From positions 1 through 37,824 of the forward strand of contig JAUNDE010000017.1 of NCBI GenBank assembly GCA_030526265.1: a stretch of 37,824 nucleotides of DNA, in the 5' to 3' direction. This document shows, in pieces, positions 1,563-19,071 of the stretch; the first letter of the stretch is position 1; every line of letters begins with the position of its first letter. Under the pieces are notes generated by a model that searched no databases, was not told the origin of the DNA, and saw only the letters and a list, made by a program, of their open reading frames with translations. Origin of the DNA: Eubacteriales bacterium (GTDB lineage Bacteria > Bacillota > Clostridia > Lachnospirales > Lachnospiraceae). Made by a program: the position numbers and the translations under genes.

Positions 1563-2687
1563 TTATCTGGCATTGACAGAGATGCCGTTTACTTCGACTT
1601 CATCATCGATCGGGATGACGAGACATTTCCTTCCGTCAATCATCTGAATATCGATGAGATCAGCCCGTTCCGGGTTCACATTTACAACGATTTCCGGAGT
1701 TTTTACAGAGAACTTTCGTGTGCTTGCGATATTGGAAGCAAGGAGAGTCGTCTGCGCTCCGATATTTTCGTTATAATTTTTATCAAATGCTTCCAGCTTT
1801 TCTTCTGAAATACCGCTTTTTGAGAAAAGACGGCGGACTTCCTGTTTGCCGAGTTCCAGAGGTTCCGGTTCTTCCTTTGACTCTTCGATCATTTCCTGAA
1901 GGTTTTCGTGAATATTTCGGATGACCGAATAGTCACAGTCTTCCTTGAGTGTATTTACAATGATATCCTGGAAGGACTCTTTTTGCGTTCCGGCACTCAT
2001 GACTTCTGTGCAGCCGAGCGTATATTCAACAAAATAATCCTGCAATGCTTCTGGCTTTTTGGAATAGAAAAGCAGGTGATGAAGATCTGAGCTTCTGTCA
2101 TTAAAAGCAGGGAAGAGGAAGCCGTTTGCCGGTTCTCCTACGACCCAGTCCCGGATACGATCCTGAATGGTATTTGTAACTGCATTATAGCAGAGCCCTG
2201 CTTTTGATAATGCGACAGGGCAGATGCAGCAGAGTATATGTTCATATACATTGTCGGAAGCATCGAACATATCCATTCCATCTTTGGAGCGGCCCGGAAC
2301 ATCATACACCGCATGAATCAGAAGAATGAGATAATGCTCGCCGAAATCATACGATTCGATTACTTTATCATAGAACTCCTCGAGAAGAATATCATCTTTT
2401 AATTTGCTTTCTTTCAGCTTAACAAGAGATTCCTGCTTGCCGCCGGATAATTCCTGCTCCAGCGGAAATCCCATATGTATCAGATTCTTTCCGATCGTTC
2501 CGGAAAGCGTTTTTTTGAAGATTTCATAATATTTGAAACATTCTTCCTCCGGAAGTGATAAAAAAGCTTCCTTGAATTCCAGTTTTTTTTCCTTGTCACC
2601 ATCTACGTAACATCCGCATATCCTTGTAATCGCACAGTTCTCAGGAGAGAACTGTTTGCGTATTTCCAAAACTTCTTTTTTATTCAT
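1563..2687 (-). CDS. DUF4317 family protein, function unknown
   Basis: A 374-residue soluble protein with no signal peptide or membrane segment. It resembles the DUF4317 family common in Lachnospiraceae and relatives. The start is placed at MNKKEVLEIRKQF, where an AGAGG element lies 11 nt upstream; an in-frame extension of 17 residues has no ribosome binding site and overlaps the promoter. Visible blocks include NCAITRICGCYVD near the N-terminus and NDRSSDLHHLLFYSKKPE in the middle. No catalytic motif is recognised. It is transcribed alone from a good promoter whose spacer is a perfect palindrome, so it is probably under a specific repressor. Function is not inferred. Confidence 0.8.
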   Translation of the reverse strand: MNKKEVLEIRKQFSPENCAITRICGCYVDGDKEKKLEFKEAFLSLPEEECFKYYEIFKKTLSGTIGKNLIHMGFPLEQELSGGKQESLVKLKESKLKDDILLEEFYDKVIESYDFGEHYLILLIHAVYDVPGRSKDGMDMFDASDNVYEHILCCICPVALSKAGLCYNAVTNTIQDRIRDWVVGEPANGFLFPAFNDRSSDLHHLLFYSKKPEALQDYFVEYTLGCTEVMSAGTQKESFQDIIVNTLKEDCDYSVIRNIHENLQEMIEESKEEPEPLELGKQEVRRLFSKSGISEEKLEAFDKNYNENIGAQTTLLASNIASTRKFSVKTPEIVVNVNPERADLIDIQMIDGRKCLVIPIDDEVEVNGISVNAR

Positions 2688-2728
2688 ATTAAGTAAAACC
2701 TCTGACTTTCTAATCGAAATGATAAAAT

Positions 2729-2757
2729 ATTCTAGCACAATTTTGTTGTGCTTACAA
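2729..2757 (-). promoter_or_regulatory. Promoter of the DUF4317 gene with palindromic spacer
   Basis: On the minus strand TTGTAA (2757-2752), a 17-bp spacer and TAGAAT (2734-2729) form a near-consensus sigma-A promoter about 40 bp before the chosen start. The spacer and its edges (2734-2752) form a perfect inverted repeat, AGCACAA-N5-TTGTGCT. Its position between the -35 and -10 boxes is typical of a repressor operator. Which protein binds it is unknown. Confidence 0.6.
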
Positions 2758-2815
2758 ATAATAATATTTTAAGAACCTGAGGGAATAATCAGAAATGATA
2801 TATCGTGAAAAAAGA

Positions 2816-2841
2816 GTAATATCCGGGGAAATATCATACTA
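2816..2841 (+). promoter_or_regulatory. Possible sporulation-sigma promoter of the first D,D-carboxypeptidase
   Basis: CATACTA (2835-2841) resembles the -10 of sigma-G/sigma-E promoters, and GTAATAT (2816-2822) could be a sigma-E-like -35. The 12-bp spacing is shorter than usual, so this is tentative. No good sigma-A promoter was seen here. Confidence 0.25.
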
Positions 2842-2866
2842 CAATAGTAATAATCGAAAAAAATAG

Positions 2867-4102
2867 ATGAGTGATTCTATGAAAAAAATCGCAGTCCTGG
2901 TATTGTGTGTTCTGATGTGTATGCAGAGCGTGACATGCAATACGGGTATGTCTCATGTTTTTGCAGAAGAGACGAAAGAAACGCAGGCGGAAGATGGGGA
3001 GCAGACGGAGGAGGAAAAAGAAGGCGTATCGATCAGTGCACCGGAAGGAATCCTTATGGAAGCTTCGACGGGTAAGGTCATCTATGAGAAAAATGCAGAC
3101 GACGTTCGCCCGCCGGCAAGCGTAACAAAGATTATGACATTATTGTTGATTTTTGATGCGATTGATGCAGGAAAGATCACGTTAGATGAGGAAGTGCAGG
3201 TGTCAGAGTTCGCCGCGTCGATGGGAGGATCACAGGTGTTTCTGGAGCCGGGAGAGATCCAGACCGTGGAGACAATGATCAAATGTATCGCGGTGGCAAG
3301 CGCCAACGACGCATGTGTGGCAATGGCGGAACATATCTGTGGAAGTGAAGAAGAATTTGTAAATCAAATGAACGAGCGGGCAAAGTCTCTCGGAATGGAA
3401 AATACAAATTTTGTAAACTGTAACGGTCTGGATACAGATGGGCATGTGACTTCAGCGAGAGACATCGCTATCATGTCCAGAGAGCTGATTACAAAATATC
3501 CGCAAATTCATGACTACTCTATGATCTGGATGGAAAACATTACCCATCATACGGCGAAGGGAGACAGTGAATTCGGTCTTACGAATACAAATAAATTAGT
3601 GCGGCAATATCAATACACAACCGGATTAAAGACGGGAGCGACTGACAAGGCAAAGTTCTGTGTATCTGCGACAGCGAAGAAGAATGAGATGGAAATGATC
3701 GCAGTCATTATGGCAGCAGAGAATTCAAAGGAACGATTCAGGGATGCGATGACCTTACTGAACTATGGATTCGGGAAATGTGTCAAGTATATTGATGACG
3801 GAATCGAGGCACTTCCGAACGCAGAAGTAGAGCGGGGAGAAAAAGACGAAGTATCCGTTCGTCAGAAAGAAAAGTTTGAGTACATAGATACCGAGGGGCA
3901 GGATTTGTCAGAGATTAAAAAGAAAATTGAATTGTATGAGAAAGTCAAAGCTCCTGTAAAGAAAAATGATAAAGTAGGTGAGGTAATCTATTCCCTGAAT
4001 GGGGAGAAAATCGGCAGTGCTGATATTATAGCATGTGAGGATATTGATGCGATGGATTATAAGATCGCACTTGAGAATGCGTTGGATGAACTGTTTTTGT
4101 AA
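2867..4102 (+). CDS. D-alanyl-D-alanine carboxypeptidase (PBP5/DacF type)
   Basis: A 411-residue serine D,D-carboxypeptidase that removes the terminal D-Ala from peptidoglycan stem peptides outside the membrane. An N-terminal hydrophobic segment (KKIAVLVLCVLMCMQS) is a signal peptide. The three active-site motifs are in order: SVTK (Ser85), SAN (145-147) and KTG (255-257). The C-terminal part (about 300-390) fits the PBP5 C-terminal beta domain; the tail is only mildly amphipathic. The start codon is uncertain: an internal Met four codons later begins MKKIA, and neither has a strong ribosome binding site. It is monocistronic or shares weak read-through with the next gene. It is one of two paralogues in the window. 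Confidence 0.88.
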   Translation: MSDSMKKIAVLVLCVLMCMQSVTCNTGMSHVFAEETKETQAEDGEQTEEEKEGVSISAPEGILMEASTGKVIYEKNADDVRPPASVTKIMTLLLIFDAIDAGKITLDEEVQVSEFAASMGGSQVFLEPGEIQTVETMIKCIAVASANDACVAMAEHICGSEEEFVNQMNERAKSLGMENTNFVNCNGLDTDGHVTSARDIAIMSRELITKYPQIHDYSMIWMENITHHTAKGDSEFGLTNTNKLVRQYQYTTGLKTGATDKAKFCVSATAKKNEMEMIAVIMAAENSKERFRDAMTLLNYGFGKCVKYIDDGIEALPNAEVERGEKDEVSVRQKEKFEYIDTEGQDLSEIKKKIELYEKVKAPVKKNDKVGEVIYSLNGEKIGSADIIACEDIDAMDYKIALENALDELFL

Positions 4103-4154
4103 TAAGATGCTTGAAATCGGAAAGAACGATCTGGAATTTCTTTTTTGAATATGC

Positions 4155-4183
4155 TTCACAAAAAAATGAAATAATGATACTAT
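4155..4183 (+). promoter_or_regulatory. Candidate sigma-A promoter of the metallophosphoesterase gene
   Basis: TTCACA (4155-4160), a 17-bp spacer and TACTAT (4178-4183), about 60 bp before the start codon. A small inverted repeat (TTTCGG at 4183-4188, CCGAAA at 4204-4209) overlaps the predicted start of the transcript. Confidence 0.45.
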
Positions 4184-4245
4184 TTCGGTGAGGGATTTTT
4201 ATTCCGAAACATATATTTCTTGAATTTTCAGAAACGTGGTAAGGT

Positions 4246-5223
4246 ATGAAAAGAGCAAAAAAGAAAAAACAAGGCATGATTATCAAAAGAATAAAGAAGA
4301 TCTTAAAGAAATGGAAAAAGTCCTGGGAACAGACTGGCCCGGAATGTACGGCTGCGCTTATAGGAGTTGGGATTTTGAGTGCATTACTTGAGATCAAAAA
4401 AGAATTGAGTGAATTCTGTGTTCGAAAGTATACTTTAAAAGTGCCATATGAGTCAGAGAACGGAGAAGCAGTGAAAGTAATCTTTGTATCGGATCTTCAT
4501 GGAAAGCAGTATGGAAAAAACAATGTATCATTGATTCGGGCAATAAAGGAGGAACAGCCGGACTTTATTTTGTCAGGAGGAGACATTCTGACACGAAGCG
4601 AAGAAGCGACAGATCATACTGCGATCCGATTTTATCAGAATTTATCAGAGATCTGTCCGGTATATGCTGCAAATGGTAATCATGAACAGCGTATGAAGGA
4701 AAACTCTGAATACTACGGTTTCAGATATGCGAGGATGAAAAAACAGCTTGAGAATTCCGGGGTTAAGATTCTGGAAAATGAATCCGTTGATATAGATATG
4801 AAAGGGATTCCGGTTACAATAACCGGATTTGAGACTCCTTTGAAATGCTACAGTCATTTTAAATCGGTTCCACTTGATCTGTCAGAAATGATCGAGCGAA
4901 TCGGAATGGCGGAAAGAGAGCGTTTTCAGATTTTGCTTGCCCATAATCCTGCATATATGAAGCAGTATGCAGACTGGGGAAGCAAACTGACACTGTCCGG
5001 ACATTTGCACGGAGGACTTGTGCGTATCCCTGGAATCGGCGGCCTGATTACGCCTCAGGCAAGATTATTTCCAAAATATTCCGGTGATATGTATATCAAA
5101 GATAATAAAGCATGTATTGTCAGCAGAGGCCTGGGGACACATACAGTGAATATTCGTTTGTTCAATATGCCTGAAGTAGTGTCGATCACATTGCTTCCCA
5201 AAAACACAAATCATAAAAAGTAG
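4246..5223 (+). CDS. Metallophosphoesterase, YaeI-like
   Basis: A 325-residue calcineurin-type phosphoesterase with a full set of metal-binding motifs: SDLHG (82-86), GGDIL (111-115), NGNHE (143-147), LAHNP and SGHLHGG. The N-terminal 35 residues are very rich in Lys/Arg, followed by a short hydrophobic stretch (AALIGVGILSALL), which suggests association with the inner membrane face. Family members hydrolyse phosphodiesters or pyrophosphates; YaeI-like proteins are linked to lipid head groups, but the substrate here is not known. An AAGG element precedes the start, and a strong terminator follows the gene. Confidence 0.85.
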   Translation: MKRAKKKKQGMIIKRIKKILKKWKKSWEQTGPECTAALIGVGILSALLEIKKELSEFCVRKYTLKVPYESENGEAVKVIFVSDLHGKQYGKNNVSLIRAIKEEQPDFILSGGDILTRSEEATDHTAIRFYQNLSEICPVYAANGNHEQRMKENSEYYGFRYARMKKQLENSGVKILENESVDIDMKGIPVTITGFETPLKCYSHFKSVPLDLSEMIERIGMAERERFQILLAHNPAYMKQYADWGSKLTLSGHLHGGLVRIPGIGGLITPQARLFPKYSGDMYIKDNKACIVSRGLGTHTVNIRLFNMPEVVSITLLPKNTNHKK

Positions 5224-6779: not shown

Positions 6780-8069
6780 ATGGAAGTGGATGAGAGAAGA
6801 TATCATAGAACACTCCGCAGAATGCTGGCCTGTGTGATCGTTTCGGTGATTGTGACCGGTTCGGTAGGTATAGCCGGGTGGTCAGATGCAAATACAGTTT
6901 TTGCAGAAACAGGAGATGTAAAGGAAGAAAATGGAAATGAATTTACCGATTCATTGTATGCAAAATCGGCAGTTCTCATGGATGGCGACAGTGGAAGGAT
7001 TCTGTTTGGAAAGGACGCTGACACTCCGCGCCCGATGGCGAGTACGACGAAAATCATGACATGCATCATCGCTCTGGAATATATGCAGGATGAAAATGAA
7101 ATAGCAGAAGTATCTGAAAATGCGGCCAGACAGCCGAAAGTACATTTGAATGTGAAGCAGGGACAACAGTTTTATCTGAAGGACCTGCTTTATTCTTTGA
7201 TGCTGGAATCGCACAATGACAGTGCGGTCATCATAGCAGAGCATATAGGCGGAAGTGTACGGGGATTTTCTGAACTGATGAATGAAAAGGCAAGGGAAAT
7301 TGGCTGTGAAAATACATATTTTATCACGCCGAATGGTTTGGATGCATCGGATGAAAATGGTACGCATTCTACTACAGCCGGAGAGCTTGCAAAAATGATG
7401 AAGTATTGTGTTGTGGATTCACCTAAAAAGAGTGATTTCATTGAGGTTACAGGGACAAGGAACTATTCTTTTCAGGATGTTGCGTGTACACAGACCTATT
7501 CCTGTACGAATCACAATGCATTTCTTGATATGATGGAGGGTGCCATTTCCGGCAAAACAGGTTTTACCGGAGATGCGGGATACTGTTATGTTGGGGCGCT
7601 TCAAAAAGACGGGAAAACGATGATCGTGGCACTTCTGGCATGCGGATGGCCGAACAATAAGAGTTATAAATGGTCTGATACGAAGGCTCTTATGAAGTAT
7701 GGACTGGAACATTACACAAAGAAAAAAATATGGAAAGCCCCGGAGCTTCCGTCGGTTCAGATTGAAAATGGTGTGCCGGACGATGAGATTTTAGGGAATC
7801 GCGCAAGTGTCGGTGTGATGGTTGAAAAGCCCGCAACAGACTGGCAGTATTTGTTGCGGGATGATGAGGAAGTGCGTATATCAGTCGATATGGAAGAATC
7901 GGTCAGAGCACCGGTTAAACAGGGGGAAGTGCTTGGCACGCTGACTTATAATCTGAATGGGGATGAGATCGGCAGGTGGAATATCATTTCGGTGAATCAT
8001 AAAGAAAAAAGAACTCTGTTTTGGTGTTTGGCAATCGTTTTTCAAATGTGTATTAAAATAAATCAATAA
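6780..8069 (+). CDS. dacB: D-alanyl-D-alanine carboxypeptidase, dacB-like
   Basis: A 429-residue penicillin-binding carboxypeptidase exported by an N-terminal signal segment (residues 15-33, LACVIVSVIVTGSVGIAGW). Active-site motifs: STTK (Ser88-Lys91), SHN (144-146) and KTG (259-261). A hydrophobic C-terminus (LFWCLAIVFQMCI) may anchor it in the membrane. Gene order scpA-scpB-carboxypeptidase matches Bacillus, where dacB trims cross-links in the spore cortex; a sigma-E-like promoter in the 96-bp gap supports a sporulation role, but this is inference. The ribosome binding site before the chosen ATG is weak, so the exact start is uncertain. It is not followed by spmAB as in Bacillus. Confidence 0.85.
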   Translation: MEVDERRYHRTLRRMLACVIVSVIVTGSVGIAGWSDANTVFAETGDVKEENGNEFTDSLYAKSAVLMDGDSGRILFGKDADTPRPMASTTKIMTCIIALEYMQDENEIAEVSENAARQPKVHLNVKQGQQFYLKDLLYSLMLESHNDSAVIIAEHIGGSVRGFSELMNEKAREIGCENTYFITPNGLDASDENGTHSTTAGELAKMMKYCVVDSPKKSDFIEVTGTRNYSFQDVACTQTYSCTNHNAFLDMMEGAISGKTGFTGDAGYCYVGALQKDGKTMIVALLACGWPNNKSYKWSDTKALMKYGLEHYTKKKIWKAPELPSVQIENGVPDDEILGNRASVGVMVEKPATDWQYLLRDDEEVRISVDMEESVRAPVKQGEVLGTLTYNLNGDEIGRWNIISVNHKEKRTLFWCLAIVFQMCIKINQ

Positions 8070-8118
8070 AAATGATTAAAAACGCCACTTTTCAATTAGA
8101 GATAACTATGATAGTATT

Positions 8119-8162
8119 AAGTTGACTTTAAAAAACGACAATAAAGTTGATAAATATTTATC
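8119..8162 (+). promoter_or_regulatory. Repeat-rich leuA upstream region (possible AraC-type sites)
   Basis: The 151-bp gap before leuA has a 7-bp direct repeat, AAGTTGA at 8119-8125 and 8144-8150 (25 bp apart), and a perfect 14-bp palindrome GATAAATATTTATC at 8149-8162. TTGACT (8122) and TTGATA (8147) are possible -35 boxes, but no well-spaced -10 is obvious, as is common for promoters that need an activator. No T-box or leader peptide was seen. A binding role is inference from the DNA-binding domain on the encoded protein. Confidence 0.3.
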
Positions 8163-8220
8163 TTGTCAATGAAATAATCTTGAAGGACAGGATAACTTTC
8201 CAATAGAGAGGAGTACGATT

Positions 8221-10209
8221 ATGGAAAATTGTAAGAAGTATGAAAGACAATATTTTATGCCGCCGGAGTGTACCTATGACTGGGTGAAAAAGGATCATAT
8301 CGAGAAAGCACCAAGGTGGTGCAGTGTTGACCTCCGTGACGGTAATCAGGCATTGATCGAGCCAATGAGCCTGGACGAAAAGCTTGAGTTTTTCCAGCTT
8401 CTTGTAGATATCGGATTTAAAGAGATCGAAGTCGGATTCCCGGCTGCATCAGAGACGGAATATAAATTCATGCGCACATTGATCGAGAAGAATATGATTC
8501 CGGATGATGTGACGGTTCAGGTGCTGACACAGGCAAGAGAACATATCATTAAGAAAACATTTGAGGCAGTAAAAGGCGCACCTCATGCGGTTATTCATTT
8601 GTATAATTCAACATCTGTTGCACAGAGAGAGCAGGTGTTCAGAAAAGATAAAGAGCAGGTTATGAACATTGCAATCGAGGGTGCAAAGCTCCTGAAGAAG
8701 CTTGCGGATGAGACAGACGGCAATTTTACATTCCAGTACAGTCCGGAGAGTTTCCCTGGCACAGAAGTTGACTATGCAGTGGATGTATGCAATGCAGTAT
8801 TGGATGTATGGCAGCCGACAGAAGATAATAAGGCGATCATCAATATCCCTACAACTGTGGAAAATGCGATTCCTCATGTGTTTGCAACACAGCTTGAATA
8901 TGTACACAAACATTTGAAATACAGAGAAAATGTGATTCTTTGCCTTCACCCACACAATGACAGAGGCTGTGGTGTTGCAACTGCCGAGCTCGGAATGCTT
9001 GCAGGAGCAGACCGTATCGAAGGAACACTGTTTGGAAACGGAGAGCGTACAGGCAACGTGGATATCATTACACTTGGTATGAATATGTTCTCACACGGTG
9101 TGGATCCAAAGCTTGACTTTTCAAACATTGCGATGCTCCGTGAAAAATACGAACGCCTTACAAGAATGCGAGTATATGAGCGTCAGCCTTATTCGGGAGA
9201 TCTTGTATTTACAGCATTTTCCGGATCACATCAGGATGCGATCGCGAAGGGTATGCAGTGGCGTGAAGATGGCAAGAGTGATATGTGGACCGTTCCATAT
9301 CTTCCGATCGACCCACAGGATGTCGGAAGAAGATATGACTCAGATGTTATCCGAATCAACAGCCAGTCAGGAAAAGGCGGCGTAAACTATATCTTGAAAC
9401 AGAATTATGGCATCAATCTTCCGGAGAAGATGAGAGAAGAGGTAGGATACCTTGTCAAAGGTGTTTCTGACAGAGCTCACAAAGAGCTTACACCGGAATG
9501 GGTATACCAGATTTTTACAGACAACTATGTAAATGCAAAGAGCGTATTTGCGATTGATGAATGCCATTTCAGACAGACAGACGGAATTATTGCAGATGCG
9601 ACGATCCAGCACGGAAATGATACAAGAATCGTAACATCATCCGGTAACGGACGTCTTGATGCGGTAAGCAACGCGATCAAACAGTATTTCAACATCAGCT
9701 ACGAGCTCAGATATTACGAAGAACATTCGCTCACAAGAGGATCTTCATCCAAAGCGGTCGCCTATGTTGGTATCGTATGCAATGGCAAGACATGCTGGGG
9801 TGTTGGAATCGATGCGGATATTATCAAGGCATCGATTGAGGCGCTGATCGTTGCGGTAAACAAACTGGAACAGATCAAGACAGCAGACACATGCAAGGAT
9901 GCCCGTATGATCGAGATCATGAATTACATTCAGGCAAACTATATTGATATTACTTTGGATGATCTGTCTGAGAAATTCTTCCTGTCAAAACCTTACCTTT
10001 CAAAATACATCAAGGAAAAGTCAGGCATGACATTTGGCGAGCTTGTCAAGAAGGTACGAATGAAGAAGGCCCGTGCGATGCTTAAGAGCAGCAGCATGAC
10101 GGTTGAGAATATCGCACTTACGGTTGGATATCAGAATGTAGAGCATTTTAACAGACTGTTCAAGAAGGCTTACAATATGACACCGGTTCAGTTCAGAAAT
10201 CAGAAATAG
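8221..10209 (+). CDS. leuA: 2-isopropylmalate synthase with C-terminal AraC-type DNA-binding domain
   Basis: A 662-residue fusion. Residues about 1-400 are the catalytic TIM barrel of the long LeuA type, which condenses acetyl-CoA with 2-oxoisovalerate in the first step of leucine synthesis: SVDLRDGNQAL, LHPHNDRGCG and GNGERTGN are clear. Residues about 430-555 match the LeuA regulatory domain that senses leucine (SSGNGRLDAVSNAI, SLTRGSSSKAVAYVG). From residue 560 a complete AraC/XylS double helix-turn-helix follows (LDDLSEKFFLSKPYLSKYIK, then IALTVGYQNVEHFNRLFKKA and MTPVQFR). There is no stop or frameshift between the parts. Ordinary LeuA ends before this domain. It could be an enzyme that also regulates transcription. 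GAGAGGAG precedes the ATG; a hairpin follows the gene. Confidence 0.93.
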   Translation: MENCKKYERQYFMPPECTYDWVKKDHIEKAPRWCSVDLRDGNQALIEPMSLDEKLEFFQLLVDIGFKEIEVGFPAASETEYKFMRTLIEKNMIPDDVTVQVLTQAREHIIKKTFEAVKGAPHAVIHLYNSTSVAQREQVFRKDKEQVMNIAIEGAKLLKKLADETDGNFTFQYSPESFPGTEVDYAVDVCNAVLDVWQPTEDNKAIINIPTTVENAIPHVFATQLEYVHKHLKYRENVILCLHPHNDRGCGVATAELGMLAGADRIEGTLFGNGERTGNVDIITLGMNMFSHGVDPKLDFSNIAMLREKYERLTRMRVYERQPYSGDLVFTAFSGSHQDAIAKGMQWREDGKSDMWTVPYLPIDPQDVGRRYDSDVIRINSQSGKGGVNYILKQNYGINLPEKMREEVGYLVKGVSDRAHKELTPEWVYQIFTDNYVNAKSVFAIDECHFRQTDGIIADATIQHGNDTRIVTSSGNGRLDAVSNAIKQYFNISYELRYYEEHSLTRGSSSKAVAYVGIVCNGKTCWGVGIDADIIKASIEALIVAVNKLEQIKTADTCKDARMIEIMNYIQANYIDITLDDLSEKFFLSKPYLSKYIKEKSGMTFGELVKKVRMKKARAMLKSSSMTVENIALTVGYQNVEHFNRLFKKAYNMTPVQFRNQK

Positions 10210-10342: not shown

Positions 10343-11059
10343 ATGGGAAATATTAATCTGTTTGCTGAACTGCCGAAAGGCTCAATTTCTGAGATTATTA
10401 TACAGAGGATTACTGATGCTCTGATCAGTGGAGAACTGAAGCCGGGAGACAAAATCCCTACAGAAGTGGAGTTCAGTGAGAAGCTTGGAGTCAGTCGGAA
10501 TGGTGTGCGTGAGGCAATCAAAGTGCTGGTTGCATTTGGTGTGCTGGAGATCCGCCGTTCGGAAGGAACCTTCGTAGTTGAGGAATATAATCATAAATTG
10601 TTGGATCCTCTGCTTTATGGACTTATTTTATCGGAGCATTCCATGGAAGAACTTCTGGAAGTTAAGATTGCAATTGCCAATTCCGTGCTGTATCTGGCGA
10701 TTCTGAATGCTTCCGATGAAGAGATCGGGAAGCTTCGTGAAATGGGCATGGAATTTAAAAGAATAATGAATGAAAAGCCTGCAGACATTGAGAAAATGTA
10801 TCAGTCGAGCAAGCGGTTTAATGAGTATCTGAGTGAGATTTCTCAGAACCGAATGCTTTGCCAGCTGGACAGCATTATTCGAAAGATTGCCTCATTTACA
10901 AGACATAAGGCGATTGAAGTTTCTGTAGAGAGAAAAATGGTCAATGCACTTCCGGATAATTATTTAAAAGAAGTAGATATTCTGGAAGCGAGAGATAAAC
11001 GTGCGATTGCTGATTTTATGGATGAGAGGCTGGAGCTTTGGCAGAAACTCTTGCTGTAA
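10343..11059 (+). CDS. GntR-family transcriptional regulator, FadR subfamily
   Basis: A 238-residue regulator. Residues about 15-80 are a GntR winged helix (ISGELKPGDKIPTEVEFSEK, LGVSRNGVREAIKVL, then the RRSEGTFV wing). Residues about 95-235 are an all-helical FCD-type effector domain. The usual metal-binding Asp/His residues of FCD proteins appear missing: the FH position reads RFNEYL, and the later His positions read EVDILEARD and DERLE. The effector may thus bind without a metal. The gene lies just upstream of, and in the same direction as, the aldehyde dehydrogenase operon; a terminator and a twin operator lie between. It most likely controls that operon and itself. The effector is unknown, perhaps an acyl-CoA or acid. 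Confidence 0.88.
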   Translation: MGNINLFAELPKGSISEIIIQRITDALISGELKPGDKIPTEVEFSEKLGVSRNGVREAIKVLVAFGVLEIRRSEGTFVVEEYNHKLLDPLLYGLILSEHSMEELLEVKIAIANSVLYLAILNASDEEIGKLREMGMEFKRIMNEKPADIEKMYQSSKRFNEYLSEISQNRMLCQLDSIIRKIASFTRHKAIEVSVERKMVNALPDNYLKEVDILEARDKRAIADFMDERLELWQKLLL

Positions 11060-11103
11060 CAGAGAATCGCAGCAAGACATATGTTAAAAAATAGACAAAA
11101 AGT

Positions 11104-11151
11104 GAGACTTGTTTTTGTGTATTATTTACAAAAATCAAGTCTCTTTTTTTT
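11104..11151 (+). terminator. Rho-independent terminator after the GntR gene
   Basis: GAGACTTG (11104-11111) pairs with CAAGTCTC (11136-11143); the stem continues as TTTTTGT with ACAAAAA. A run of T follows (11143-11151). Confidence 0.85.
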
Positions 11152-11163
11152 AACTAATGTCAA

Positions 11164-11198
11164 TTGAAAAGCGATGTGCAATGTAGTACATTGTACAT
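11164..11198 (+). promoter_or_regulatory. Operator and promoter of the aldehyde dehydrogenase operon
   Basis: A 25-bp near-perfect palindrome spans 11174-11198 with core CAATGTAGTACATTG (11179-11193), the same CAATGT-N3-ACATTG as before the GntR gene. TTGAAA (11164-11169) with TACATT (11187-11192) at 17-bp spacing is the likely promoter, so bound regulator would cover the -10 and repress. Four ATGT/ACAT half-sites are visible, two more than in a minimal site. Confidence 0.7.
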
Positions 11199-11231
11199 AT
11201 AACATTCGGAAAATAAAAGGAGGAAGGTAAA

Positions 11232-12599
11232 ATGGATGCAAAGGAATATGTTTTAGATTTAATCGAAAAAGGAAGAAAGGCACAGCAGGAATTTGAACAG
11301 TTCTCTCAGGAGGACGTGGATAAAGCAGTGCGTGCGATCGGTAAGATCATCTATGATAATGGCGAGATGCTGGCAAAAATGGCTGTAGAAGAGACACGTA
11401 TGGGTGTCTATGAGGATAAGATCAAGAAGAATAAAGGAAAAGCCAAGGCGGTCTGGAATAAATTAAAAGGCGTTAAGAGCCGTGGTATCATTGAGTATGT
11501 TGAGGAGGAAGGAATCGTCAAGGTCGCAAAACCGATCGGTGTGATCGGAGCTGTATCACCGACAACGAATCCGACTATGACACCAATGCATAATGCGATG
11601 ATCGCGCTGAAAGGTGCTAATGCGATTATCGTCGGACCGCATCCACGTGCAAAGAAGACTGGTGTTGAGACGGTAAGACTGATGCGTGAGGCATTGAAGT
11701 CTGTAGGTGCGCCGGAGGATCTGATCCAGATTATCCCGGAACCAACAGTTGAACTGTCAGGTCTTCTGATGTCTGAGTGTGATGCATGTATTTCTACCGG
11801 AGGACCAGGAATGGTAAAGGCTGCTTATAAGAGTGGCAAACCGGCATTCGGTGTAGGAGCAGGAAATGTTCAGACACTGGTAGATACGGACGTGGATCTC
11901 GCTGAAGTGGCTAAGAAGGTAGCATTTAGCCGTACATACGACAACGGTGTGCTCTGTACATGTGAGCAGTGTGTACATGTACCGGTTTCCATGCATGATG
12001 AGCTGGTTGACGAACTGGTAAAACAGGGCGCATACTATATCAGTAAACCAGAGGAAATTGAGACTTTGAGAAAAGGTCTGTTCCCGAATGGTGCGATCAA
12101 TAAAGATGCAGTTGGAACATCAGCAGTATCGATTGCAAAGCTTGTGGGTCTGGAAGTTCCGGAAGACACCAGATTCCTGCTTGTTGAGATTGAGAAATCC
12201 GGTAAAGAAGAAGTGCTTGCAAAAGAGAAACTTTGTCCGGTTCTTGCAATCAACAGCTATGAGACATGGGAAGAAGCAGTGGATAAAGCAGTTACAAACT
12301 TGAAGAATGAAGGTGCGGGTCACAGCAGCGTGGTTCATTCTAACACGAAAGAGCATGTGGAGTATGCGGCAGAGCTTCTTCCGGTATCTCGTGTCGGTGT
12401 TAACATGATCGGTTCATCCGGACTTGGCGGAGGATTTGACAACGGTCTGAATCCAACGGCAACACTTGGATGTGGAACATGGGGAAATAACTCCCTGAGT
12501 GAGAACCTCTGGTGGAATCACCTTGTAAATATTGCACGAATCGCATATGTCATTCCGGGCAAACCGATTCCGACAGATGAAGAAATCTGGGCTAAATAG
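11232..12599 (+). CDS. CoA-acylating aldehyde dehydrogenase
   Basis: A 455-residue NAD(P)-dependent dehydrogenase of the type that converts an aldehyde plus CoA to acyl-CoA, like the N-terminal half of AdhE or EutE. Visible: GVIGAVSPTTNPTMTPMHNA, GGPGMVKAAYKSGKPAFGVG for cofactor binding, and DNGVLCTCEQC with the probable catalytic Cys242. No N-terminal microcompartment-targeting extension is seen. A strong AGGAGG precedes the ATG. Genes for phosphotransacylase and acid kinase follow within 20 bp each, so the acyl-CoA made is likely used for ATP. The chain length of the aldehyde is unknown; acetyl, propionyl, butyryl, branched or sulfo-aldehydes are all possible. Confidence 0.88.
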   Translation: MDAKEYVLDLIEKGRKAQQEFEQFSQEDVDKAVRAIGKIIYDNGEMLAKMAVEETRMGVYEDKIKKNKGKAKAVWNKLKGVKSRGIIEYVEEEGIVKVAKPIGVIGAVSPTTNPTMTPMHNAMIALKGANAIIVGPHPRAKKTGVETVRLMREALKSVGAPEDLIQIIPEPTVELSGLLMSECDACISTGGPGMVKAAYKSGKPAFGVGAGNVQTLVDTDVDLAEVAKKVAFSRTYDNGVLCTCEQCVHVPVSMHDELVDELVKQGAYYISKPEEIETLRKGLFPNGAINKDAVGTSAVSIAKLVGLEVPEDTRFLLVEIEKSGKEEVLAKEKLCPVLAINSYETWEEAVDKAVTNLKNEGAGHSSVVHSNTKEHVEYAAELLPVSRVGVNMIGSSGLGGGFDNGLNPTATLGCGTWGNNSLSENLWWNHLVNIARIAYVIPGKPIPTDEEIWAK

Positions 12600-12618
12600 T
12601 CCGCAGGGAGAAAAGAGT

Positions 12619-13536
12619 ATGATTCGAAGCTTTAAAGAATTGATTGAAAAAGTGCAAAACGGCGAGCCACAGACATTGTCTGTGGCTGTTGCACAGGATG
12701 CAGATGTTTTATTGTCCGTCTGGCATGCATATCAGAACAGGATTATTAAGGGTGCGTATCTGGTAGGAGACGAGAAAGAGATCCGGAAGATCGCAGAGGG
12801 ACTGGATATTGATCTGTCCAAATTTGAAATCGTCAATGAAGAAGAGAAGCCGGATGCCTGTGCTGCAGCGATCAGGCTTGTAAAAGAAGGAAAAGCGTCT
12901 CTTCCCATGAAGGGATTTGTAGATACTTCGGTAGCGTTAAAGGCTTTGTTAAATAAGGACTACGGACTTCGCACCGGCAATCTGATCTGCCATGTGGGAC
13001 TGATGGAGATCCCGGGATTTGACAGAATGTTTTTGCTGAGTGATTCTGCCATGACGATTGCTCCTACACTGGAGCAGAAGGTAGATCTGATCAGGGCATG
13101 TACGGAGATTGCACATGCTATGGGAAATGAGAATCCGAAGGTTGCCGTACTTTGTGCGGTTGAGAAAGTGAATCCGAAGATGCCTGCAACACTGGATGCG
13201 GCTGAACTTACAAGAATGAACGAGGCCGGGGAGATCACAGGGTGTATGGTGAAAGGTCCTCTTGCCATGGATAATGCCGTATCGGTAGAAGCGGCAAGAC
13301 ACAAGGGAATCGACCATCCGGTTGCCGGCAATGCAGATATCCTGATCACACCGGATATTGAAGCGGGCAACATTCTGAATAAATCAATGGAATATTTTGC
13401 AAGGTGTGAAAAGGCCGGATGTATCATGGGCGCTGCAAAGCCGATGGTTCTCACATCCAGGGCAAGTTCGGATACATCAAAGATGAATTCGATCGCCCTT
13501 GCAGTATTGGCAGCACAGTCTGCCGGAAAGAACTAA
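12619..13536 (+). CDS. ptb: Phosphate butyryltransferase family protein
   Basis: A 305-residue enzyme that exchanges CoA for phosphate: acyl-CoA + Pi to acyl-phosphate + CoA. The C-terminal half is typical of Ptb/Pta: GPLAMDNAVSVEAARHKGI, GNADILITPDIEAGNILNKS and AKPMVLTSRASS. The start MIRSFKELIEK is chosen because GGGAG lies 8 nt upstream; a longer frame would run far into the previous gene. It lies 19 bp after the aldehyde dehydrogenase gene and 10 bp before the kinase gene. Substrate preference (butyryl, propionyl, isobutyryl) cannot be read from the sequence. Confidence 0.88.
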   Translation: MIRSFKELIEKVQNGEPQTLSVAVAQDADVLLSVWHAYQNRIIKGAYLVGDEKEIRKIAEGLDIDLSKFEIVNEEEKPDACAAAIRLVKEGKASLPMKGFVDTSVALKALLNKDYGLRTGNLICHVGLMEIPGFDRMFLLSDSAMTIAPTLEQKVDLIRACTEIAHAMGNENPKVAVLCAVEKVNPKMPATLDAAELTRMNEAGEITGCMVKGPLAMDNAVSVEAARHKGIDHPVAGNADILITPDIEAGNILNKSMEYFARCEKAGCIMGAAKPMVLTSRASSDTSKMNSIALAVLAAQSAGKN

Positions 13537-13546
13537 GGAGAAGGAT

Positions 13547-14656
13547 ATGTATCGAGTGATTGTATTAAACCCTGGATCAACCTCTACGAAAGTAGCAATG
13601 TATGAAGGTGACAGGAAAGTATTTACGGAGAATATCAGCCATCCTGCAAGTGATCTGGCGGTGTTTCCGAATATTGTTGATCAGCTCCCTTACCGCAAAG
13701 AAATTATCACGAAGACGCTGAAGGAGAGAGGAGTGGACCCGGGAGAAGCGGATGCATTTTCTGCGATCTGTACAGGTCTCCTTCCGATGGAAGGCGGTGT
13801 GTATGAAGTCAATGAGACGATGTATGCGCACGGACAGGTTGGACCGGGAAGTAAGCATCCCGGTAATCTTGGTCCTCTTCTTGCAAAGGATTTTGCGGAG
13901 GAATTTGGCGGTCGTGCATTTATCGTAGATGCAAGCAGTGTAGATGAATTCGAAGAAGAAGCTCGTATGACGGGATTTGCCGAGGTTCTTCGCACGAGTC
14001 GCGGTCATCCGCTGAACCAGCGCGCTGCGGCAAGAAAATATGCTGACGACTGCGGGAAGCAATATGAAGAGATGAATCTGGTGGTAGCTCATCTTGGCGG
14101 CGGTATTTCTGTCAGTGCGCACTGTCAGGGACAGATGGTAGACACTGTTGACAGCACACGCGGAGAGGGGCGTATGGCTCCGACAAGAAGTGGTACAGCA
14201 CCGCTTGCGGATGTCGTGGAACTGTGCTACTCCGGCGAATACACGAAGAAAGATATGTATACAAAGATTATGAAAACCGGCGGATGGACAGCACATCTGG
14301 GAACATCTGACGCCCGAGAAGTGGAAAAGCGAATTGCGGAAGGTGATGCATTTGCAGATCTTGTTTACCGGACAACAGCATATCAGATCGCAAAAGATAT
14401 CGCTGCGATGGCATCGGTCATGAAGGGAAAGGTTGATGCGATCATTCTGACCGGAGGAGTAGCATACTCAGATCTGATGACAGGAATGATCAGAGAACGT
14501 GTGGAATTTATCGCGCCGGTGGAGGTCTATCCAGGTGAGTTTGAGATGGATGCTCTGGCTTCAGGTGCCATCCGTGTACTCGAGGGCAGAGAAGAACCAA
14601 AATCTTATACCGGAGAGCCGGTATTTCCGGGATTTGATGTCTTGTATGACAGATAA
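13547..14656 (+). CDS. buk: Butyrate kinase family protein
   Basis: A 369-residue acid kinase of the acetate kinase/Hsp70 fold that makes ATP from acyl-phosphate and ADP. Visible motifs: VLNPGSTSTKVAMYEG (phosphate 1), NLVVAHLGGGISVSAH, DSTRGEGRMAPTRSG and AIILTGGVAYS. The AAGGAG site 7 nt upstream sets the start at MYRVIVL. It is the third enzyme of a co-directional operon and completes substrate-level phosphorylation from an aldehyde. Some Buk enzymes favour branched or C3 acids; the choice here is unknown. Confidence 0.9.
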   Translation: MYRVIVLNPGSTSTKVAMYEGDRKVFTENISHPASDLAVFPNIVDQLPYRKEIITKTLKERGVDPGEADAFSAICTGLLPMEGGVYEVNETMYAHGQVGPGSKHPGNLGPLLAKDFAEEFGGRAFIVDASSVDEFEEEARMTGFAEVLRTSRGHPLNQRAAARKYADDCGKQYEEMNLVVAHLGGGISVSAHCQGQMVDTVDSTRGEGRMAPTRSGTAPLADVVELCYSGEYTKKDMYTKIMKTGGWTAHLGTSDAREVEKRIAEGDAFADLVYRTTAYQIAKDIAAMASVMKGKVDAIILTGGVAYSDLMTGMIRERVEFIAPVEVYPGEFEMDALASGAIRVLEGREEPKSYTGEPVFPGFDVLYDR

Positions 14657-14699
14657 ATTTCCGGACAGAATATTAAAGTTACAAAGTGAGGAATGAACT

Positions 14700-16193
14700 G
14701 TGGATATTGGAATATGGAATCTGTTAGGAATCGCACTGATTATTGCTATTATCATCGGTGTAGGTATTTATTCCGGGAGAATGGTATCGGATGCGTCAGA
14801 CTTTGATACCGGCGGAGGAAAGGCGGGACCATGGATTGTGTGCGGAGCAATTATGGGCAGTCTCGTAAGCGGGCAGGCTACGATTGGAACCGCACAGCTT
14901 GCATTTGAGTTTGGAATGTCAGCCTGGTGGTTCACGCTTGGATCAGGAATCGGCTGTCTGATTCTTGCAGTCGGTTATGTGATTCCGCTTCGTCACAGTG
15001 GCAGTATTACGCTTCTGGAAGTCATCGGAAAAGAATATGGTGCGAAAGCGGAGTACGCGGGTTCCGTCCTATGTTCCATTGGAATCTTCATCAGCGTGAT
15101 CGCACAGGTTTTATCCAGCTGCGCACTTCTGACTGCGATTTTTCATATGAATTTTCTGACGGCGGCGGTGTTATCCATCGCAGTTATGGTTGTCTATGTC
15201 GTGTTCGGAGGCGCATGGGGTGCCGGAATGGGCGGAGTTGTCAAGCTGATTCTGCTTTATGGATCCTCTATACTGGGGCTGGGGATCGTGCTGTCAAACA
15301 GCCATGGCATAAGCGCGCTGATCGGACAGCTTCAGACCACTCTTGCAGGAACGGATCTCGGTAATCTTGCAGGGTTTGTGACGGCGGAGGATGTGTCCGG
15401 TCGCTACCTGAGCCTGTTTTCCAGAGGATTTCTGAAAGATATGGGTTCCGGCTTGTCACTGCTTCTCGGAGTGCTGGCAACCCAGACCTACGCACAGGCC
15501 ATCTGGTCAGCGAAGAGTGACAGTAAAGCCAGAAAGGGTGCTATGCTCAGTGCTCTTCTGATCCCACCGATCGGAATCGCATGTATTTTTATCGGAATGT
15601 TTATGAGAAATCACTGCCTGACCACAGCGGAAATCGCGGCACTTGTGGAAGCTGGAAAGAGCATCCCGGAGGGAATGATAGAGATTACAGGTTCTTCTCA
15701 GGTATTTCCAGCATTCGTCATAAATTATATGCCGCAGTTTGTGGGAGGAATTGTTCTTGGTACGCTTCTGATCACAGTCATTGCCGGAGGGGCAGGCCTT
15801 TCACTGGGAGTTGCGACCATCCTGGTAAATGACATCTTCTGCAAGGTCTCAAAGAGTCTGTCAGATGTGAAGAAGAAACTGTATGTAACGAGAGTTACGA
15901 TCGTTGCCACACTGGCAGCGGCAGCGGCAATTGCTTTGGTGGTGCCGGGGGCGATCATTAACGACTTTGGATTCTTATCTATGGGAATCCGCGGAACGGT
16001 CGTATTTATTCCGCTTACATGTGCACTGTTTGCCAAAGGAAGGATCGCACCGTGGGCAGTACTTGCCTCTATGGCTGCGGGACCGGTTGCAGTTCTTGGA
16101 GGGAATCTTGCCGGATTACCGTTTGATTCGCTTTTCCTCGGTATTGCAGTGTGCCTGATTTGTATGCTGATTGGTAAAATAGCAAAAAGATGA
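14700..16193 (+). CDS. Sodium:solute symporter family protein
   Basis: A 497-residue membrane protein with about 12-13 hydrophobic segments and the SSS-family look (ASDFDTGGGKAGPWIVCGAIMGS near the N-terminus, SAKSDSKARKGAMLSALLIPP in the middle). It would import a solute with Na+. The start is GTG with GAGG 8 nt upstream. The gene is 43 bp after buk and before a terminator, so it is the last gene of the aldehyde-oxidation operon and probably imports a substrate of that pathway, or a related acid. The substrate is not known. Confidence 0.85.
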   Translation: MDIGIWNLLGIALIIAIIIGVGIYSGRMVSDASDFDTGGGKAGPWIVCGAIMGSLVSGQATIGTAQLAFEFGMSAWWFTLGSGIGCLILAVGYVIPLRHSGSITLLEVIGKEYGAKAEYAGSVLCSIGIFISVIAQVLSSCALLTAIFHMNFLTAAVLSIAVMVVYVVFGGAWGAGMGGVVKLILLYGSSILGLGIVLSNSHGISALIGQLQTTLAGTDLGNLAGFVTAEDVSGRYLSLFSRGFLKDMGSGLSLLLGVLATQTYAQAIWSAKSDSKARKGAMLSALLIPPIGIACIFIGMFMRNHCLTTAEIAALVEAGKSIPEGMIEITGSSQVFPAFVINYMPQFVGGIVLGTLLITVIAGGAGLSLGVATILVNDIFCKVSKSLSDVKKKLYVTRVTIVATLAAAAAIALVVPGAIINDFGFLSMGIRGTVVFIPLTCALFAKGRIAPWAVLASMAAGPVAVLGGNLAGLPFDSLFLGIAVCLICMLIGKIAKR

Positions 16194-16225
16194 TTAAAAT
16201 TCATTTTAACTTAAGAAGACAATAA

Positions 16226-16258
16226 AGGGTAGAGTATTAAAAATGCTCTGCCTTTTTG
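16226..16258 (+). terminator. Rho-independent terminator after the symporter gene
   Basis: GGTAGAGTAT and ATGCTCTGCC form a 10-bp stem with two G-U pairs, followed by TTTTTGTG. It separates the aldehyde operon from the decarboxylase operon. Confidence 0.8.
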
Positions 16259-16291
16259 TGTAACAGGAAATTGATGCGAAGGAATTGTTAC

Positions 16292-16323
16292 ATAATAAAT
16301 AAAATCAATAATAAATAAAATCA
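16292..16323 (+). repeat. Perfect tandem duplication of a 16-bp AT-rich unit
   Basis: ATAATAAATAAAATCA occurs twice head to tail (16292-16307 and 16308-16323), ending one base before the -35 box of the decarboxylase operon. It could act as an UP element or be slippage. Confidence 0.8.
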
Positions 16324-16324
16324 G

Positions 16325-16353
16325 TTGAATTGTAAGTATGAAAAATATATAAT
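16325..16353 (+). promoter_or_regulatory. Sigma-A promoter of the decarboxylase operon
   Basis: TTGAAT (16325-16330), a 17-bp spacer and TATAAT (16348-16353), 67 bp before the first start codon. Confidence 0.75.
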
Positions 16354-16420
16354 AATACATATTTTGGTTTTTCAATTGTAAATCATTACATGTGTGAAAA
16401 TAGGAATGGAGGAAAGTGTT

Positions 16421-17860
16421 ATGAATAACATAACAATGACAAGTGCAGCAGGTAATAGAATCATTTCTTTGCTTGATGCAGGAAGCTTTGTTGAAATCGG
16501 TGGAGCAGTAACTGCGAGAACTACAGATTTTAACATGCAGGAAAAAGATACTCCAGGCGATGGAGTTATCACCGGATATGGAGTAATTGACGGCAACCTG
16601 GTGTATGTGTACAGCCAGAATGCTGCTGTGTTAAATGGCGCAGTCGGAGAGATGCATGCAAAGAAAATCGCAAATATTTATGACATGGCGATGAAAATGG
16701 GTGCTCCTGTGATCGGCCTTGTTGACTGTGCGGGGTTCAGACTTCAGGAAGCGACCGATGCGCTTGAGGCATTCGGAAGCCTGTATTTGAAACAGACACT
16801 GGCATCAGGAGTGATACCTCAGATTACAGCGATTTTTGGAACATGCGGCGGTGGCCTTTCTGTCATTCCGGCACTTTCAGACTTCACATTTATGGAAGCA
16901 AAGAGTGCGAAGCTGTTTGTAAACTCACCAAATGTGATTCCGGGAAATGAGATCAGCAAATGTGATACATCATCACCGAAGTTCCAGAGTGAACAGACAG
17001 GTCTTGTTGACGGAATCGGAACAGAGGATGAGATCCTTGCAAATATCCGCACATTGATCACAATGCTTCCGTGCAATAATGAGGAAGACGCTTCTTATAA
17101 TGAATGTGCAGATGACCTTAACCGTGTATGCTCGTCGATTGAGAATGCGAAAGAAGATACGGCAATCGTGCTTGCAGAAATATCTGACAGTCACATTTTC
17201 TTCGAGACAAAGAAGGAATATGCAAAGGATATGGTAACCGGATTTATCCGTCTGAACGGTATGACTGTCGGAGCGGTTGCGAACCGTTCTAAAGTATATG
17301 ATGCTGAAGGAAATACAGCAGCAGAATTCGATGGTTCTCTTTCAGCAAAAGGAGCGAGAAAAGCGGCAGAATTCGTTGAGTTCTGTGATGCATTTAATAT
17401 TCCTGTACTTACGCTTACAAACGTTTCAGGATTTAATGCTGCAAAATGCTCAGAAAAGACTCTTGCAAAAAATACCGCAAAATTGATCTATGCATTCGCG
17501 AATGCTACAGTTCCTAAGGTGAATGTGATCATCGGCAAAGCATTCGGAAGTTCGTATATTGCAATGAACAGCAAATCAATCGGGGCAGATATGGTATATG
17601 CATGGCCGGAAGCAGAAATCGGCATGATGGATGCGGGACTTGCGGCAAAGATCATGTATGCAGATTCTGATGCAGTTACTCAGAAAGAAAAGGCTGCAGA
17701 ATACAGAGAACTTCAGTCAAGCCCTCTGTCAGCAGCAAGAAGAGGATATGTCGATACACTGATCCAGCCGGCAGATACAAGAAAATATGTGATTGGAGCA
17801 TTTGAAATGCTTTTTACAAAGAGAGATGAGCGCCCGGCAAAGAAACACGGAACAGTCTAG
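16421..17860 (+). CDS. Acyl-CoA carboxyltransferase (MmdA/PccB-like)
   Basis: A 479-residue two-domain crotonase-fold carboxyltransferase of the type that moves CO2 between biotin and an acyl-CoA (malonyl-, methylmalonyl- or glutaconyl-CoA decarboxylase alpha subunits). Oxyanion-hole blocks are GTCGGGLSVIPALSDFTFME in the N-terminal domain and GKAFGSSYIAMNSKSIGADM plus YAWPEAEIGMMDAG in the C-terminal domain. The usual SGGARIQEG segment reads CAGFRLQEATDALEAFG, so the protein is a divergent member. GGAGG 8 nt upstream places the start at MNNITMT. It is the first of five genes for a membrane decarboxylase complex. Substrate assignment is open. Confidence 0.82.
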   Translation: MNNITMTSAAGNRIISLLDAGSFVEIGGAVTARTTDFNMQEKDTPGDGVITGYGVIDGNLVYVYSQNAAVLNGAVGEMHAKKIANIYDMAMKMGAPVIGLVDCAGFRLQEATDALEAFGSLYLKQTLASGVIPQITAIFGTCGGGLSVIPALSDFTFMEAKSAKLFVNSPNVIPGNEISKCDTSSPKFQSEQTGLVDGIGTEDEILANIRTLITMLPCNNEEDASYNECADDLNRVCSSIENAKEDTAIVLAEISDSHIFFETKKEYAKDMVTGFIRLNGMTVGAVANRSKVYDAEGNTAAEFDGSLSAKGARKAAEFVEFCDAFNIPVLTLTNVSGFNAAKCSEKTLAKNTAKLIYAFANATVPKVNVIIGKAFGSSYIAMNSKSIGADMVYAWPEAEIGMMDAGLAAKIMYADSDAVTQKEKAAEYRELQSSPLSAARRGYVDTLIQPADTRKYVIGAFEMLFTKRDERPAKKHGTV

Positions 17861-17873
17861 CGAGGTGATACAA

Positions 17874-18638: not shown

Positions 18639-18661
18639 TCGGTTTTAGGAGGAAATAAGAG

Positions 18662-19027
18662 ATGAAAAGTTATACAATTACAGTGAACGGAAATGTATAC
18701 GATGTAACTGTTGAGGAAAAGAACGGAGCTGCGGCACCTGTTATGGCAGCACCGGTTGCAGCAGCACCAGCTGCAGCACCAAAGGCGGCACCAAAGGCAG
18801 CTTCAGGAGCAGGATCCATTAAAGTTGAGGCAGGTGCAGCAGGCAAAGTATTTAAAGTAGAGGCGAAAGTTGGACAGAGTGTCAAGAGAGGTGACGCAGT
18901 TGTTATCATCGAGGCGATGAAGATGGAGATTCCGGTTGTTGCACCGGAAGACGGTACAGTTGCAAGTATTGATTGTGCAGTAGGTGATCCGGTTGAAGCT
19001 GGAGCAGTTCTTGCTACTTTAAATTAA
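18662..19027 (+). CDS. Biotin carboxyl carrier protein of decarboxylase
   Basis: A 121-residue carrier. An N-terminal strand region (MKSYTITVNGNVYDVTVEEK) is followed by an Ala/Pro/Lys-rich flexible linker (about 24-50) and a biotinyl domain with the EAMKM motif; biotin is attached to Lys87. It shuttles CO2 between the carboxyltransferase(s) and the membrane beta subunit. AGGAGG lies 9 nt before the start. It resembles GcdC/MmdC and the 1.3S subunit of transcarboxylase. Confidence 0.93.
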   Translation: MKSYTITVNGNVYDVTVEEKNGAAAPVMAAPVAAAPAAAPKAAPKAASGAGSIKVEAGAAGKVFKVEAKVGQSVKRGDAVVIIEAMKMEIPVVAPEDGTVASIDCAVGDPVEAGAVLATLN

Positions 19028-19071
19028 GACATATCTTTGTTTATGTTTGAAATTCGACTGGAGGTTAAAAA

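Follow-up and report, generated by a model that had tools for sequence, protein, structure and literature searches.

The window, by which we mean the whole stretch of 37,824 nucleotides that was analysed, contains at positions 8221..10209 of the forward strand a gene with an ATG start, which forms a single open frame of 662 codons plus stop with zero internal stops. Its product is a fusion of 2-isopropylmalate synthase (LeuA) with a helix-turn-helix (HTH) tail. All on the forward strand, the gene encodes a LeuA catalytic domain (residues 31-307, 8311..9141; Pfam PF00682, HMGL-like, E 3.6e-69), the post-catalytic domain IPMS_D2 (residues 327-393, 9199..9399; PF22615), the leucine-sensing allosteric domain LeuA_dimer (residues 422-549, 9484..9867; PF08502), an in-frame linker that in the window is without an A run (residues 550-563, 9868..9909), and an AraC-type double HTH tail (residues 560-661, 9898..10203), which was recognized by Pfam, by predicted helices and by conserved motifs. 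The leucine-binding domain lies immediately N-terminal to the tail, and the length of the linker is 42 nucleotides in 113 of 115 distinct in-frame linkers. The Pfam matches of the tail are HTH_18 (582-661) and HTH_AraC (621-660), and all the Pfam domains of the fusion exceed their cut-offs. Additionally, the NCBIfam model PRK03739 (2-isopropylmalate synthase) covers residues 5-548 with 801 bits against a cut-off of 455; the NCBIfam AraC-type models (AraC, RhaS) cover approximately residues 540-661, but stay under their own cut-offs. The claim of the earlier note that a complete LeuA, including the leucine domain, is fused in frame to a complete AraC-type double HTH is borne out by Pfam, NCBIfam and the open frame.

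Residues R39, D40, H243, H245 and N279, which we take to be catalytic or metal residues of LeuA, are invariant in 26 aligned fusions. The same is true of G475-N476-G477, which aligns opposite G531-N532-G533 of M. tuberculosis LeuA, presumably residues with a role in leucine binding. With the catalytic, post-catalytic and leucine allosteric domains all present, and with the key residues and regulatory glycines kept, the N-terminal part belongs to LeuA. The M. tuberculosis enzyme (1sr9; 3fig, leucine-bound) is 46% identical to it over 544-547 aligned columns and has the catalytic and regulatory domains and the Gly-Asn-Gly in common with it; its solved chain, however, stops at the regulatory domain, without an HTH tail. 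In the tail, the motifs LS.PY.SKYI.KSG and GY.NVEHF are conserved among the fusions, and so are the positions of the recognition helices, which are predicted at residues 590-601 and 640-651. An AlphaFold model (26 fusions) gives the tail as seven helices, with a block pLDDT of 80-88 over residues 561-660, and is mediocre for the whole chain (mean pLDDT 72, pTM 0.50, poor at 320-386). A fold search ranked M. tuberculosis LeuA first, and an AraC-type chain was absent among the 50 matches listed.

The two HTH motifs in the C-terminal domain are those of the AraC/XylS family. The small N-terminal effector-binding/dimerisation domain of this family was not found, and the whole LeuA enzyme occupies the N-terminus; many AraC/XylS members are without the small domain, and its absence does not bar the tail from the family. 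The likeness to AraC, RhaS and SoxS lies in the C-terminal double HTH of about 100 residues and in a direct-repeat-like (here putative) operator beside the -35 region; the difference is that the sensor of the fusion is a whole enzyme rather than a small sugar-binding or other effector domain. A second LeuA was not found in the own genome at E values up to 1e-3. Carriage of the fusion by plasmids was also considered and was rejected, as a plasmid collection contained no near match to it.

The full-length fusion, in frame and without stops, was found in 10 of the 11 genomes of the window's own genus, among them the complete genome of Claveliimonas bilis. The nine other full-length proteins of the genus are 86-94% identical to the window protein, and in the eleventh genome (G008) the fusion gene is interrupted by contig ends. 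At least 68 of 299 sampled Lachnospiraceae carry the full-length in-frame fusion; in genome G173 it is truncated at a contig end, and in G071 and G088 the tail is a separate frame directly behind leuA. Named carriers among the best 80 of 102 loci include Claveliimonas bilis, Mordavella massiliensis, Dorea phocaeensis and Sporofaciens musculi. When the tail alone was used as a query, a LeuA-type tail was detected in 92 of 397 genomes, in 90 of them within a frame of at least 660 residues and separately in the same two, G071 and G088; below 98 bits the matches become AraC-type proteins of other sizes, mostly of 337-396 residues. Moreover, a class-wide sample of 391 genomes revealed the fusion in three genomes from two other families, each time as one frame, with LeuA parts that are 69-72% identical over the aligned length. 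Many of the surveyed genomes are metagenome-assembled. On a quickly built LeuA tree of 130 distinct genes, eight changes between tail and no tail are required, which implies repeated gain or loss of the tail. The in-frame HTH part has a median dN/dS of 0.021 (46 pairs), compared with 0.024 for the LeuA part, and is under strong purifying selection.

The search for the domain pair and its spread, which the earlier note had suggested, thus found the pair across the genus and the Lachnospiraceae and also in other families, and the full-length in-frame copies in the genus and in the family lead us to reject an assembly error or a chance fusion. A stop or frameshift between the two parts in other strains had been named in advance as the sign of such an error. 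None is present in the full-length copies of the genus; in other lineages they do occur, for the most part where a poly-A run is present, but the tail is selected there, which points to a second route to the fusion rather than to error.

A 27-bp consensus, TTAAAANNNATCAANNAAANTGATTAA, was read from a block that the named fusions share in their upstream DNA. The window matches this consensus exactly at the main putative operator, which we named O1 (TTAAAATAAATCAATAAAAATGATTAA, 8053..8079, + strand) and which overlaps the final 17 bp of the upstream ORF 6780-8069. The region 8070-8220, in which DNA binding was previously suggested to be assayed, starts inside O1 and splits the putative operator. 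In the own genome (2.23 Mb, 93% complete), O1 is the sole match at up to three mismatches and the reversed control gave 0, so that a wider regulon was not seen there at this threshold. In the 299 Lachnospiraceae, 58 sites were found at up to two mismatches, of which 45 precede a tailed leuA by 64-798 bp and share its strand, some of these genomes being of the species from which the consensus was read. All 21 exact sites and 7 of the 8 one-mismatch sites stand before a tailed leuA. The other 13 of the 58 sites lie elsewhere, and the reversed control pattern likewise gave 13 matches in the 299 genomes. Seen from the side of the genomes, 26 of 71 tailed ones have no site with up to two mismatches near leuA.

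For a direct comparison, 20 tailed and 20 tail-less genomes were taken from the Lachnospiraceae list. An O1-like site with up to three mismatches was present within 700 bp of leuA in 19/20 tailed versus 0/20 tail-less genomes (Fisher p 3e-10, a value that ignores kinship and includes genomes of the species that supplied the consensus), and the best match upstream of a tail-less leuA had six mismatches. In the tailed exception, G017, an exact site is present farther out, on the far side of a T-box, with its start 824 bp upstream. A larger set comprised 100 distinct tailed loci for which 250 bp or more of upstream DNA was available (7 tailed and 19 tail-less rows were omitted, their upstream DNA being too short); of these loci, 84 have a site at up to three mismatches, 7 at four or five, and 9 have none. 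In a tree-based comparison, which used separately fetched upstream DNA for 17 of the 19 omitted tail-less rows, the site is present in 84 tailed rows and absent in 16, and it is absent in all 21 tail-less rows; five independent pairs on supported branches gave 4.2 on average in the same direction and 0 in the opposite one (p 0.06 to 1), five pairs being too few for significance. The three tailed genomes of other families have an O1-like site as well, with 0, 1 and 3 mismatches. Two close relatives, L051 and L052, have intact tails and lack the conserved promoter and operator, and their upstream DNA looks replaced.

Downstream of O1, on the + strand, the window contains a -35-like hexamer, TTTTCA (8089..8094; 4/6 matches), and an extended -10 element (8109..8117), consisting of TG and then TAGTAT at 8112-8117, at a fixed distance from O1. 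Across the 84 loci, TG is found at this fixed position in 77, and a -10 with at least 4/6 matches likewise in 77 loci. Most loci have a poor -35, and O1 together with a second half-site ends where the -35 would start. This second half belongs to a direct repeat, TTAAANNNNATCA, which recurs every 23 bp and in which 8 or 9 of 9 positions match in 43/84 loci; in the window it is weaker, as a degenerate copy at 8076..8088 (+ strand). A weaker second copy of the whole site, O2 (TTAAAAAACGACAATAAAGTTGATAAA, 8128..8154, + strand), has four mismatches and lies approximately at the expected transcription start. O2-like sites were detected in 32/84 loci, 28 of the 32 at 73-75 bp from O1, and an equal control window upstream of O1 gave 0/83. 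A generic promoter/terminator scan did not list the extended -10 promoter of leuA and is uninformative. In the rumen relatives L081-L083, L085, L088 and L100, a second palindromic block, AACATCAA..TTGATGTT, can be observed downstream of the -10, with a spacing that differs from that of O2.

This geometry would suit activation by an AraC-type protein at O1, the second site possibly serving for repression or looping. The same elements can also be read as autorepression, in which leucine-bound or abundant LeuA-HTH on O1 and O2 would shut its own extended -10 promoter without any activation. Such a reading draws on the place of O2 at about the transcription start, on the O1-O2 distance, which amounts to about seven helical turns and keeps both sites on one face of the DNA, with its empty control, and on the four matching positions of the -35-like hexamer of the window; an extended -10 promoter, moreover, can work without an activator. 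However, O2 was detected in fewer than half of the loci (32 of 84), and O1 lies directly upstream of a mostly poor -35, the place right upstream of the -35 being that of an activator for AraC-type proteins. We consider autorepression possible but doubtful, and we favour, with moderate confidence, activation at low leucine over repression at high leucine as the net effect.

The 13 sites of the 299-genome scan that do not belong to leuA are distributed over tailed (five) and tail-less genomes (eight), and none of the latter is near leuC within the stretches fetched. Among the five, one lies 85 bp before leuC (G217), one approximately 270 bp before leuC (G226) and one approximately 680 bp before a gene of the leuC family (45% identity), which is cut by the end of the stretch (G212); the two remaining sites have no leuC nearby. 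In G217 and G226, leuC exceeds the leucine-pathway cut-off. In genus g208, to which G217 belongs, a scan of 13 genomes with the tail, using a slightly relaxed pattern, placed a site before leuC in six, before leuA in nine (three of these by coordinates) and at least one site in 12. Putative operators upstream of leuC were observed at loci L296-L299, L305, L306 and L327, which represent six genomes of one genus and one genome of another. The leuC gene of the same pathway is the sole other recurrent location of the site that was found, and given these sites the tail appears to act in trans on the leucine pathway. In the own genome, two leuC-family genes under the leucine-pathway cut-off have no site (best match, six mismatches), and the other genes of the leucine pathway were not found in this assembly, which is 93% complete; nor was a better leuC. 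In stretch L341 of the own genome (C17), the region 1647-5143 encodes isopropylmalate-dehydratase-like subunits, a small and a large one in each of two tandem pairs, which are under the leucine-pathway cut-off.

In principle, the operator could be bound by an unlinked regulator, the tail having another role, e.g. oligomerisation. The binding of O1 by the tail is itself deduced from sequence comparison, and many genomes contain tens of other AraC-type genes. Nevertheless, the site tracks the tail and not leuA itself, as the 19/20 versus 0/20 comparison indicates, the tail's recognition-helix positions are conserved, and a search of the own genome with the tail returned at E values up to 1e-3 one other protein only, which is AraC-type and 27% identical; we therefore regard an unlinked regulator as very improbable. 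Because the site co-occurs with the tail at leuA, the tail very probably binds the O1-like site and the enzyme very probably controls its own synthesis, which would make this LeuA a leucine-sensing trigger enzyme. An enzyme and a DNA-binding domain are joined in one conserved protein, and a site that co-occurs with this domain is found at genes of its own pathway. The idea of the earlier note that the protein is a trigger enzyme has in this way gained strong comparative support, from the co-occurrence of site and tail, the fixed distance to the promoter, the single occurrence in the own genome and the additional sites at leuC.

Considering these data together, the gene probably encodes a bifunctional, self-regulating LeuA that would act through its tail, O1 and the leucine domain. 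The N-terminal part would make 2-isopropylmalate, and the leucine-binding domain, which adjoins the tail, would report leucine, which is quite probably the signal for the tail. The AraC-type tail would bind O1 upstream of the extended -10 promoter of its gene, and also O2 in loci that have it. In the likeliest scheme, the enzyme without leucine would activate the transcription of leuA and, in some genera, of leuCD, and the binding of leucine would inhibit catalysis and weaken or reset DNA binding. One allosteric site would thereby set both the activity and the amount of the enzyme.

Control of leuA in Clostridia by a T-box is likewise a control at the leader or promoter by leucine supply; a T-box, however, senses uncharged tRNA in the RNA, whereas the tailed genes mostly have the DNA site and some have both. 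A T-box was detected at leuA in 16/20 tail-less versus 3/20 tailed genomes. The leuA of the window has no Rfam T-box match at the gathering score, and control by a T-box was rejected for it. In several tailed leuA genes that carry both elements, the operator is upstream of the T-box. In the lineage of the window, the T-box seems to have given way to the tail and the operator, a direction of change that we infer. In two tail-less genomes, a Clostridiales-1 RNA (Rfam RF01699) was observed between the T-box and leuA (L194, 359-517; L197, 222-385).

A different arrangement of the two parts was found in the genus of locus L106, in which the tail was matched in 16 of 20 genomes, out of frame in 13 and in frame in three. 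The junction contains A9 in 11 genomes, A8 in two and A10, which is in frame, in one; the other two in-frame tailed genomes are without an A run. In the A9 genes, the LeuA frame typically ends with ...AAA AAC TGA, and the tail goes on in the -1 frame. The out-of-frame tail has a median dN/dS of 0.078 (38 pairs; LeuA, 0.060), and it is therefore very probably translated. Linker A runs of at least eight were found in 13/14 distinct out-of-frame genes versus 2/115 in-frame genes; outside the linker, the longest run ranges from 4 to 8 in the LeuA part (130 genes, a single one with 8) and does not exceed 8 in the tail part (107 genes, two with 8). Loci L099, L102, L104-L107, L109, L110, L180, L181, L183, L188 and L189 combine an A8 or A9 run with an out-of-frame tail and are candidates for transcriptional slippage in a gene of amino acid biosynthesis. 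G088 (L141), with an out-of-frame A8 junction, and L066, with an in-frame A9, apparently represent independent lineages. In G071, the separate frame of the tail is without a run.

Since A8, A9 and A10 all occur, transcriptional slippage fits best, and it is fairly likely that in the L106 genus the out-of-frame tail is reached in this way, which would give both plain LeuA and LeuA-HTH from one gene. A conserved homopolymer lies at the frame change, and the frame downstream of it is under selection. According to PMC1088944, when homologs keep a run of nine at constant length, its deliberate use is very likely; with A9 in 11 of 14 run-bearing genomes, the genus agrees in part with this criterion. 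With A9, a classic slippery heptamer for -1 shifts, A AAA AAC, also precedes the tail, which is then in the -1 frame, and the shift could instead be made by the ribosome. In the two A8 species, however, a -1 shift meets a stop and not the tail, one species has A10 in frame, and the RNA fold downstream of the run is unremarkable (z -1.1 to 1.2 in 13 sequences), so that an RNA structure stimulating frameshifting was not seen in these sequences; -1 ribosomal frameshifting is in our opinion unlikely. Still less likely is phase variation, in which the length of the run in the DNA would switch the tail on and off. The run is 8, 9 or 10 in related species with conserved flanks, as such switching would have it, yet exactly A9, out of frame, is kept in 11/14 run-bearing genomes over large synonymous distances, and random switching predicts about one third in frame, against the 1/14 observed. 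The preferred transcriptional slippage would be similar to the A9 slippage in Thermus dnaX and in IS elements, in which a conserved A9 likewise lies between two parts of one protein (PMC1088944); here, an enzyme would gain a DNA-binding domain through slippage.

Among the trigger enzymes that contain their own DNA-binding domain are PutA, BirA and NadR of E. coli (PMC8249747, PMC6978683). In these, as is proposed here for the fusion, a metabolic enzyme carries a DNA-binding domain, and the genes that it regulates, often just one target, belong to the pathway of the enzyme. The fusion differs from them in that the enzyme is the committed, feedback-inhibited LeuA and in that the AraC-type domain is at the C-terminus. 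In the available parts of these sources, LeuA is not among the five trigger enzymes of PMC8249747 and leucine is not mentioned in PMC6978683; similarly, isopropylmalate does not appear in the main text of PMC3711429 or in the part of PMC5009743 that was covered. The titles and abstract openings covered by the literature searches, outside which most subscription papers lie, described no LeuA-AraC fusion. What is new here is the 27-bp operator-like site, which precedes tailed leuA genes and keeps a constant distance to an extended -10. With a slight lean in its favour, we propose the wider picture in which a committed biosynthetic enzyme would itself be the transcription factor that senses the end product of its pathway, in which one leucine site would set both catalysis and the leuA promoter (and leuCD in some genera), largely supplanting the T-box, and in which slippage at a conserved A9 would set the tailed share in one genus. 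For amino acid operons, the idea that the first enzyme of a pathway controls it at the DNA goes back decades (autogenous regulation; first-enzyme models of his and ilv) and, to our knowledge, found little support. If true, the present system would be a clean case of such control, in which each element, from the enzyme and its allosteric site to the DNA-binding domain and the operator, would be identified; it would show how a protein sensor can supplant a T-box and how slippage can tune the ratio of enzyme to regulator from one gene. Tailed, tail-less and out-of-frame tailed genes offer natural comparisons in common gut bacteria, and the operator consensus is an immediately testable prediction.

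Downstream of leuA, at 10343-20223, the window contains genes for a GntR-type regulator, an aldehyde dehydrogenase, members of the phosphotransacetylase and acetate kinase families and a sodium-solute symporter, and also for a carboxyltransferase, an oxaloacetate-decarboxylase gamma subunit, and biotin carrier and beta subunits. This region looks like a separate uptake and decarboxylation pathway.
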